This document shows positions 19,519-51,931 of a stretch of DNA of 64,000 bases, in pieces. The notes under the pieces were generated by a model. The model saw only the letters and a program-made list of their open reading frames with translations. It ran no database searches and was not told where the DNA came from. This DNA is from Tillus elongatus. Lineage: Eukaryota; Arthropoda; Insecta; Coleoptera; Cleridae. Positions within the stretch are counted from its first letter, which is position 1; every line of letters starts with the position of its first letter. Location: contig OZ023267.1 of NCBI GenBank assembly GCA_964006375.1, forward strand, positions 24,362,739 through 24,426,738. The letters run 5' to 3'. The translations under genes and the position numbers were made by a program.

Positions 19519-19742
19519 CATTCAGTTTTTGTGACGGTAATATTGTTCTACTCAGTAAGTGGTGGACGTGCCGCCACCTAGTTGCGGAACCAAGTAGTAT
19601 GCTGTCACGCCAGCTCCAAATAACACAAAGTGTTAAAAAAATAGAGACTGGATACAGCTAACTAACAATTTAGAAAATTGTCAGCCCTGGCCCATTTCTA
19701 CCCCAATATAGGGACAAAGTATGTAAGACTCGATGCATATTT

Positions 19743-19811
19743 GCAACAATTAGAACCGTAGACCGGTTTCGCTCTCATTAGAGCTCTTCAGTACGGCATA
19801 CTAATTGTAGC
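19743..19811 (-). ncRNA. Hammerhead-type ribozyme core (minus strand)
   Basis: Read on the minus strand: CTGAAGA (19791-19785), hairpin GCTCT-AATG-AGAGC, GAAA, hairpin CCG-GTCTA-CGG, then TTC. Flanking GCTACAATTA and TAATTGTTGC can pair as an outer stem. This is the CUGANGA - stem II - GAAA - stem III order of a type I hammerhead. The bases next to the cleavage position do not pair ideally with the base before CUGA, so activity is uncertain. Identical in sequence to the + strand copy. Confidence 0.6.
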
Positions 19812-20190
19812 AAAAATGCACCAAAAGTAATACGGCTATCGTATAGCCAGTCTTAAAATACTCAGTAAGTGGTGGACGTGCCGCCACCTAGTTGCGGAAC
19901 CAAGTAGTATGCTGTCACGCCAGCTCCAAATAACACAAAGTGTTAAAAAAATAGAGACTGGATACAGCTAACTAACAATTTAGAAAATTGTCAGCCCTGG
20001 CCCATTTCTACCCCAATATAGGGACAAAGTATGTAAGACTCGATGCATATTTGCAACAATGTCCCTATTTTGTTAACACTTTGTGTTATTTGGAGCTGGC
20101 GTGACAGCATACTACTTGGTTCCGCAACTAGGTGGCGGCACGTCCACCACTTACTGAGTATTTTAAGACTGGCTATACGATAGCATTTTT

Positions 20191-20259
20191 GCTACAATTA
20201 GTATGCCGTACTGAAGAGCTCTAATGAGAGCGAAACCGGTCTACGGTTCTAATTGTTGC
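20191..20259 (+). ncRNA. Hammerhead-type ribozyme core (plus strand)
   Basis: Core CTGAAGA at 20211-20217, stem II hairpin 20218-20231, GAAA 20232-20235, stem III hairpin 20236-20246, expected cleavage around 20248/20249 (UU or UUC). An outer stem can form between 20191-20200 and 20250-20259. Type I hammerheads of this layout are known from Penelope-like elements and retrozymes. Confidence 0.6.
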
Positions 20260-20304
20260 AAATATGCATCGAGTCTTACGGTAATATTGTTATTTACTTA
20301 AAAA

Positions 20305-20591
20305 ATTGTGGGAAAGCCGTCAGTTGCAAAATAAAAACTCTTTTTTTATTTCATTTTTAAGGATATAACGCGAGTTTTACTTTAACAAATTATGGAATAA
20401 CAAACATGAAAAAAAACAACATTTTGGTAAATTTGACTTCAGTCCCTAAAATGTTGTTTTTTTTTCATGTTTGTTATTCCATAATTTGTTAAAGTAAAAC
20501 TCGCGTTATATCCTTGAAAATGGAATAAACTTTTCCGAAAGCTAGGCATATAATAAAGAGCTTTTATTTTGCAACTAGCGGCATTCCCACA

Positions 20592-20596
<5 letters not shown>
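20305..20596. mobile_element. Palindromic (foldback) MITE
   Basis: Two arms of about 125-145 bp are inverted copies around a loop of about 20 bp at 20431-20450. The inner part is near perfect (CAACATTTT... and AAAATGTTG, through TAACGCGAGTTTTAC) and the outer part reads ATTGTGGGAAAGCCG against CGGCATTCCCACAAT. No coding sequence. The right end abuts a TA microsatellite (20594-20681). Confidence 0.8.

Positions 20597-24730: not shown

Positions 24731-51931
<27,201 letters not shown>

Follow-up and report, generated by a model that had tools for sequence, protein, structure and literature searches.

Paired end sites in head-to-head insertions of a small hammerhead-ribozyme retroelement of the beetle Tillus elongatus, with a parallel in Penelope-like elements

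The window analysed here, a 64,000-nt stretch of the Tillus elongatus genome, carries a recent-looking insertion of what its sequence indicates to be a tiny, gene-less beetle retroelement with a self-cutting ribozyme. Comparison with related loci of the same genome revealed that the outer ends of such insertions recur at two sites within the repeated unit, here termed A and B, and that all 31 loci in which both outer ends could be classed have one A and one B end, with no A+A or B+B insertion among them. The reading that we favour, and regard as probable, is that RNA circles are copied by a reverse transcriptase of the Penelope type from two internal start sites, each serving one strand of the target.

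A 731-bp stretch of the window is a single insertion, whose interior (19549-20277) consists of copies of one 310-bp unit and nothing else, running for 1.65 units and then inverted. The constituent units lie at 19549-19858 (310 bp), 19859-20060 (202 bp) and, reversed, 20061-20277 (217 bp). The second is a direct repeat of 19549-19750 at a spacing of 310, identical at 202/202 positions, and the inverted arm aligns in three stretches (I1-I3) of 133 nt at 95%, 100 nt at 98% and 97 nt at 100%. Alignment confirmed the original prediction of one insertion made solely of 310-bp units, arranged head to tail and then inverted; a BLAST search of the element against the window gave, outside the element itself, one 19-nt match only. 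With the unit numbered in ribozyme sense from the cleavage site (u1), the insertion comprises a B arm (19549-20060, ribozyme sense on the minus strand) of 512 nt, or 1.65 laps of the 310-nt unit, with its outer 3' end at u212 (site B), and an A arm (20061-20277, ribozyme sense on the plus strand) of 217 nt with an internal 17-nt deletion, whose outer 3' end lies at u36 (site A), or at u37-38 if an A and a C shared with the flank are counted. These arms are joined 5' end to 5' end at 20060/20061. The inverted copy differs from the direct one by the 17 absent bp and two substitutions, both no more than 12 bp from the joint. Losses of about 85 and 17 bp had been predicted: the shorter is a real deletion, whereas the "85 bp" are the stretch between the two end points of the inverted arm, 76 nt in the alignment and at most a candidate second deletion.

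The insertion is flanked by ACGGTAATATTGTT both on the left (19534-19547) and on the right (20278-20291), a target-site duplication of 14 bp (13-14 bp). Since its first one or two bases (A, and then C) also match the unit, the real duplication length is 12-14 bp, so that the repeat originally described as a perfect 13-bp duplication is genuine, but identical over 14 bp and of slightly uncertain true length. An extra single C at 19548 belongs to neither duplication nor element. Directly beside the insertion lies a fold-back element of about 290 bp (20303-20595), which ends in a TA repeat and has arms complementary at 97% over 72 nt (75.6% over 320 aligned positions); it looks like a MITE. The window also contains a gene for the mitochondrial ribosomal protein mS27 (Pfam MRP-S27), with the beetles Acanthoscelides obtectus (61%) and Rhamnusium bicolor (60%) as best named matches among the best 120 of 295, and a tandem array of 285- and 370-bp units at 41513-42889 (three copies of about 370 bp, with 91% matches).

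Each arm of the insertion contains a sequence that can be read as a type I hammerhead with a complete core: in the B arm at 19739-19805 on the minus strand (core 19767-19791, predicted cleavage between 19761 and 19760) and in the A arm at 20197-20263 on the plus strand (core 20211-20235, predicted cleavage between 20241 and 20242). Both have the order CUGAAGA - GCUCU(AAUG)AGAGC - GAA - A(CCGG)U - C, closed by the stem I strands CCGUA/UACGG, beyond which a small internal loop is followed by an outer helix of GCAUUUUUGCUACAAUUAG with CUAAUUGUUGCAAAUAUGC; cleavage is predicted at GGUC|UACGG. A descriptor of the type I fold (4- or 5-bp stem I, 4-bp stem II, GAAA, A..UH) matched these two places only over the 64 kb, and had no match in 300 dinucleotide shuffles. 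The Rfam model RF02275 (Hammerhead_HH9) likewise matches both arms and pairs the same strands as the manual type I reading. Its score of 26 bits (E 4.5e-4 for 821 bp) lies below the gathering score of 52, a score reached by no Rfam family anywhere in the window; the covariance-model check that accompanied the original prediction thus gave a match in both arms, though a sub-threshold one. Accordingly, the predicted type I-like core stands in each orientation, beyond chance, while the "stem III CCG/CGG" of that prediction was in the wrong register, CCGUA/UACGG being stem I in the HH9 alignment. Helix III consists of a single A-U pair and the palindrome CCGG, on account of which cleavage would probably proceed best as a dimer. 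Free minimum-energy folds retain stem II and the outer helix and extend the inner stem differently, so the active ribozyme fold is a reading of the sequence and not a prediction of folding.

To place this insertion we searched the genome assembly (1.72 Gb, 30 contigs) with the ribozyme pattern CTGANGA-N8-16-GAAACCGGTCTACGG, which gave 14,765 exact matches (7320 + 7445), as against none for the reversed control pattern in the same genome. Among copies, any of the four bases can stand at position 7 of the hammerhead core (CTGAAGA, CTGATGA, CTGAGGA and CTGACGA in the first 100 places listed). Elsewhere, the hammerhead pattern has 21 matches in prokaryote genomes and two in viral contigs. One of the latter, at 54-82 on the minus strand of a locus from the phage contig IMGVR_UViG_3300037485_002668, reads CTGATGA-GCTTATAAAAGC-GAAACCGG...CCGGTCACAGG and looks, on visual inspection, like a type I hammerhead whose helix III is normal; the other sits in apparent coding sequence.

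Forty loci were compared. These are the best-scoring of 811 first-look candidates, the window copy included, and not a random sample; the other 39 were compared against the window copy, with ends taken as BLAST limits that may overrun by a few bases. Thirty-three of the 40 have the same two-armed, head-to-head layout as the window copy, a minus arm followed by a plus arm with 5' ends inside and 3' ends outward. In locus L039 the left arm extends past the sequence examined, and the plus-then-minus order occurs only within the compound locus L050. A tally independent of similarity ranking agrees with this: for the 100 ribozyme sites listed first along contig C1, opposite-strand neighbours within 700 bp were head-to-head in ten cases and tail-to-tail in none, and at 2 kb the counts were 11 versus 2. 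The inversion had originally been attributed to template switching that joined two variants; this cause we discard, given that head-to-head arms with two fixed end sites are the family standard. The 33 arm joints represent 33 different pairs of unit positions, and, as a raw count, 18 of the 33 loci have arms that overlap by 1-14 nt at the joint. Twenty-nine of the 40 loci have an arm with two or more ribozymes; the window copy has only one per strand and hence cannot itself release a unit-length monomer.

Several features place the family among known retrozymes, namely the type I core, tandem units within 150-450 bp, low GC (41.6% for the unit) and target duplications longer than 4 bp. There is no coding frame in the unit, the longest stop-free stretch of a unit dimer being 46 aa. 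On these sequence grounds we assign the insertion to the non-LTR retrozymes of the metazoan type, of which it is a single copy; ribozyme, unit and tandem layout make it a member. It is not an ordinary satellite of long local arrays without target duplications: copies are dispersed and have such duplications (the first 100 C1 sites listed form 50 clusters over 7.36 Mb), and yet arrays of 18 laps occur inside single insertions. Same-strand steps below 1 kb among these 100 sites measured 306-307 bp in 32 of 37 cases. A DNA-level origin, in which a satellite or extrachromosomal circular DNA was reinserted with inversion, could draw on the tandem units and on the length of some arrays, but the target duplications, the two recurrent ends, the variety of joint positions and the dispersal of the copies make it extremely improbable.

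The outer ends were grouped into class A (u30-52) and class B (u204-226). Within these, 16 of 34 ends at site A fall at u36-38 (range u36-48) and 20 of 37 at site B at u212-213 (range u208-222). Among the 31 A+B loci, B is on the left in 16 and A in 15. Outside this set, L058 has an A end and, by eye, a 12-nt B arm, L039 has an A end with its opposite end beyond the sequence examined, and the single arms of L045, L055, L056 and L066 all end at B. The remaining ends are A and u118 in L057, B and u146 in L044, and B and u126 in the compound L050. A single start site common to both arms was rejected, as the classed ends are always two different sites. Three older repeats (L044 687-836, L070 8-133 and L073 622-771) share with the unit, at 75-80%, a common part lying only within u28-u189, which belongs to the A-B domain and excludes the ribozyme domain; L070 and L073 are 84% alike for 554 bp past the retrozyme-like stretch. 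The shared u28-u189 stretch is possibly a module recognised by the enzyme.

Twenty-nine of the 31 A+B loci share a stretch of at least 9 bp between their edges, as against 3 of 193 displaced windows. When aligned to the expected ends, the duplication measures 6-16 bp in 30 of the 31, with a mode of 12, and at least 9 bp in 28; the 6- and 7-bp duplications are within chance. Outward from both edges the sequence tends to read K-T-T-A at +1 to +4, left and right edges being alike (28 loci, 56 edges; p 0.006, 0.0009, 0.02 and 0.04, uncorrected, against positions 7-12), while at six positions inside the duplication there is no base preference. Such agreement between the edges is what cleavage of both strands by a single kind of endonuclease would produce.

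These ends and edges bear on whether LINE machinery of the APE type might have made the insertions, with the inversion arising by twin priming or template switching. LINE insertions have target duplications in a similar size range, and twin priming on a single linear RNA should yield segments that do not overlap, with no fixed position for the second end. Such machinery may well be at hand, in that RVT_1 scored above its cut-off in 5 of 10 window proteins tested, and reverse transcriptase frames other than BEL/Pao, which we read as LINEs, are present. The window's BEL/Pao-type LTR element itself is a single 1738-aa frame at 43613-48829 (Peptidase_A17, DUF1759, DUF5641). Nevertheless, each of the 31 classed loci is bounded on both sides by a 3' end, and these ends fall at two recurrent sites inside the unit, the second of which is fixed, contrary to twin priming; in addition, the target edges carry the same motif on both sides and the arms run for several laps. 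We therefore regard a LINE origin as unlikely.

The nature of the template can be approached through the length and the likeness of the arms. Fifty-two of 79 arms are longer than one lap; the longest measures 5669 nt, and they reach 18 laps (L039). All arms were divided into 250 unit passes, whose median differences, when pooled, are 0.32% (n=349) for passes of the same arm, likewise 0.32% (n=282) for passes from opposite arms of one locus, and 3.55% (n=17,846) for passes of different loci, L039 with its 28 passes dominating the first two. Without L039, and with gaps ignored, the medians become 1.94%, 2.78% and 3.30% (n=169, 137 and 13,390), the first two of which indicate that laps have diverged since insertion. 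With loci weighted equally, the arms of one locus differ by 1.62%, compared with 2.48% from arms of other loci at the same positions. The own-arm difference is the lower in 26 of 33 loci (Wilcoxon p 1.5e-5), with a mean rank of 0.19 for the own partner where chance gives 0.5. A strict nearest test gave a less clear picture, the own partner being nearest for 16 of 62 arms, tied for 13 and not nearest for 33.

Template-level bases, meaning those agreed by two or more passes, could be called in both arms of seven loci, which show seven shared non-commonest bases (five of them in L039, a locus with no contrast) and three contrasts; arms of different loci share 83 such bases and contrast at 1103. 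Four non-commonest bases of L039 are present in every covered pass, 25-26 in number, across both arms, one of them (u254 T) being found also in L044 and L046. The window arms have three non-commonest bases in common (u19 A, u22 T and u263 A), none unique to the locus, and contrast in the 17-nt deletion and the two bases at the joint. The arms of one insertion were thus, to judge by these variants, usually copied from the same or closely similar RNA templates, most clearly in L039. Fixed variants contrast between the arms at u204 and u208 in L041 and at u263 in L051, where two slightly different RNAs were likely used, so that two templates may be joined at times.

The same comparison supports the expectation that the ribozyme is conserved across copies, since none of 388 catalytic cells and 4 of 1974 in the core region are changed at the template level, as against 54 of 7387 elsewhere (Fisher p 0.0055 for core region versus elsewhere). 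Variability is highest in the outer part of stem I, with 24 template-level changes in 1437 cells, which speaks against a simple reading in terms of selection. Differences below the template level are spread about evenly across regions (0.3-0.7%).

As the arms run for several laps, passing A, B and the ribozyme on the way, the template is most simply taken to be a circle. The circular fold of the 310-nt unit is also a very stable one (-105.9, against -72.5 for 100 shuffles, sd 4.4, z -7.7), the complement of the unit folded as a circle giving -84.9. We infer that circular RNA, as originally predicted, best explains the multi-lap arms. The rival is a long linear multimer, with transcripts of existing arrays serving as templates on which the enzyme would still start at A and B. 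Donors of the required kind exist, as the 18-unit arrays of L039 show; the divergence between laps of one arm outside L039 would fit heterogeneous donor arrays, and in PMC11167929 unprocessed Penelope RNA is the main substrate in vitro. Linear multimers, however, would be cut by their own ribozymes, and to give the variants found throughout the passes of L039 the donor would have to be a homogeneous array longer than 18 units. Furthermore, circles are the abundant RNA form in coral, mussel and axolotl according to PMC7229834. On balance we consider linear templates somewhat unlikely and retain the circle as the preferred template.

In the partition function of this circle, u31-37 pair with u216-222 and u39-44 with u208-213 (probabilities 0.55-0.98), leaving C38 unpaired opposite U214 and U215 in an internal loop. 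In the window, with coordinates converted by hand from unit numbering, the A-side strand (u31-u44) lies at 20027-20040 and the B-side strand (u208-u222) at 19849-19863, both on the minus strand. Site A (u36-38) is beside the loop base C38 and site B (u212-213) beside U214 and U215; from this pairing pattern A and B adjoin the internal loop on opposite strands, and would therefore face each other across one predicted helix. A facing as good as this is reached by 123 of 10,585 position pairs in the same fold, by 3 of the 310 pairs that have the same spacing, and by 1 circle in a set of 200 shuffles. At the locus-majority level 513 of 520 cells of the helix pair, though the copies are too alike for this to carry weight. 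No locus has a majority double change in the helix; at the level of passes four loci vary on both sides of a pair, of which only L059 could restore one, and covariation lends the helix weak support. A retrozyme relative of 85% identity with a complete hammerhead core, L094 2066-2452, lies as one arm inside a Penelope coding region. By eye, it has U33-A220 replaced by C-G and 40-212 kept as U-G; 37-216 and 44-208, at the edges, no longer pair. We considered whether A and B might be cut by an RNase III-type enzyme and set this aside, since the offset would leave 5' overhangs and the multi-lap arms cross both sites, where the RNA must thus have been intact.

The Penelope-like elements of this genome offer a second case of paired ends. 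The genome is rich in GIY-YIG domains (14,221 candidates, of which 150 were scored), and one 476-aa frame combines RVT_1 with GIY-YIG, a domain absent from the 10 window proteins tested among the 30 listed frames of at least 120 aa. In one Penelope group, copies have one or other of two 3' ends, which lie 35 nt from each other (25 nt in L090): S1 (...GTGTACTTAT|) and S2 (...TTCACATAGTG|), which have no clear sequence likeness to A and B. Using the 3' module, we collected minus-plus neighbours within 2.6 kb from 70 loci and the window, with 35 sequences matched. Of 14 such pairs, 11 are S1/S2 and one, in L091, is S1/S1; the other two each have an end that falls in neither class, so that 11 of the 12 scorable pairs are mixed, following the same one-of-each rule as the A and B ends of the retrozyme. 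Seven of the 11 mixed pairs have 10-16 bp in common at their edges; one more is situated within TA repeats. Two tiny Penelope insertions of about 200 bp (L042 1009-1214 and L061 3911-4142) consist solely of two head-to-head 3' ends, S1 and S2, with shared edge stretches of 14 and 10 bp. A retrozyme appears to be inserted in an inverted Penelope copy at L040 726-2810.

The retrozyme insertions have the head-to-head arms, target duplication and single type of 3' end per side that mark Penelope-like elements, while their unit contains no frame with reverse transcriptase and GIY-YIG. The retrozyme thus appears, from its sequence features, to behave like a Penelope substrate although it is non-coding, and the notion of a compact, non-autonomous retrozyme-like element with a Penelope connection is supported by the type I hammerhead and the head-to-head ends. 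This raises the alternative that the unit belongs to an autonomous Penelope-like element as its pseudo-LTR, the window copy being a solo fragment. The architecture is the same, pseudo-LTRs are known to carry hammerheads, and in its weak helix III the ribozyme is like the minimal Penelope type described in PMC7761336. Looking for Penelope loci that share the unit, as suggested with the original prediction, met with partial success: unit-like pieces are present in 4 of 30 GIY-YIG loci at E 0.01 (three at 1e-4), but at no common place and in no common orientation. The Penelope 3' module here is, moreover, a different sequence, and the copies compared, from one Penelope group with no complete 5' end, do not support the unit as its pseudo-LTR; nor does the lack of a longer open stretch in the unit dimer. 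A pseudo-LTR origin is in our view decidedly unlikely.

Comparison with published systems helps to separate what is shared from what is particular to this beetle. Cervera and de la Pena (2020, PMC7229834) describe metazoan non-LTR retrozymes as tandem dimers to multimers. Like the present family, these have a type I hammerhead, tandem units of about 300 bp with GC below 45%, no open frame, duplications longer than 4 bp, a stable circular fold and many copies; unlike here, no fixed insertion ends, head-to-head rule or A/B pair is named in the available text. Helix III is also of the weak amphibian kind, unlike the stable invertebrate kind of these retrozymes (PMC7229834). In the same source the axolotl hammerhead, with its weak helix III, works as a dimer, and the newt and axolotl satellite-type hammerheads, likened by its description, share the one-pair helix III with palindromic tetraloop that makes dimeric cleavage likely, though their hosts are amphibians and ours a beetle. 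Minimal Penelope hammerheads lack a proper helix III (PMC7761336). The Dolichopoda cave-cricket repeat pDo500 (PMC2837043) likewise comes from an insect and is repeated in tandem, and its hammerhead, variable at position 7, is better conserved than the remainder of the repeat, but it is a satellite with a unit of about 500 bp, for which the portion available describes no dispersed head-to-head insertions.

Penelope-like elements share with the present family the head-to-head inverted arms with duplications, two 3' ends, internal initiation and hammerheads; they differ in that the element here is non-coding, and in the spacing of the end sites, 175 nt on the 310-nt unit as against 30-40 nt in Penelope. 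According to PMC3846280, an inverted Penelope pseudo-LTR lies beside a direct one, duplications measure 8-10 bp, and the tail is optional on one of the inverted arms. The anole Penelope enzyme of PMC11167929 cuts and extends both target strands in vitro, needs no homology to cut DNA, and starts internally at two sites bracketing the "tail". The same work reports insertion with no need of hammerhead cleavage and, against the analogy with A+B, start sites that are the same for top and bottom strand in vitro. The enzyme that moves animal retrozymes, and whether circles are its templates, are left open in what is available of PMC7229834 and PMC7761336. No A+B rule for retrozymes was found in the literature at the level of titles and abstract openings, and within these bounds the paired A and B ends, the regular head-to-head build and the Penelope parallel appear to be new.

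The following course of events would account for these observations. Read-through transcripts of multi-unit copies would be cut by the type I hammerhead, probably best as dimers, and the resulting monomers of 306-310 nt ligated into highly folded circles. A Penelope-type reverse transcriptase with its GIY-YIG endonuclease would make a staggered cut in the target, leaving 3' overhangs of 12-13 nt, and reverse transcription would start inside intact circles at two facing points of one RNA helix, with the two target strands as primers, one for site A and the other for site B. As a circle has no RNA 3' end, the enzyme must be able to start without one. Each start would then run for a variable number of laps, before the two antisense cDNAs were joined head to head, often via a few matching bases. 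The predicted facing of A and B suggests a symmetric enzyme dimer on one helix. A bolder and tentative extension, to which we give only about a one-in-three chance in our own minds, is that Penelope integration is intrinsically two-sided, with a symmetric dimer on an RNA helix making one cDNA per helix strand, and that retrozymes are parasitic on it.

With A+B ends, multi-lap arms and the Penelope parallel in hand, the question of the mobilising enzyme and its template becomes a simple in vitro test. If the proposal is true, retrozyme circles would be copyable because a Penelope-type enzyme starts internally and needs no RNA 3' end, and each start would be primed by one strand of a symmetric staggered cut, which would give one end of each kind. 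The A+B rule would thereby also suggest why Penelope insertions are built in their puzzling inverted way.
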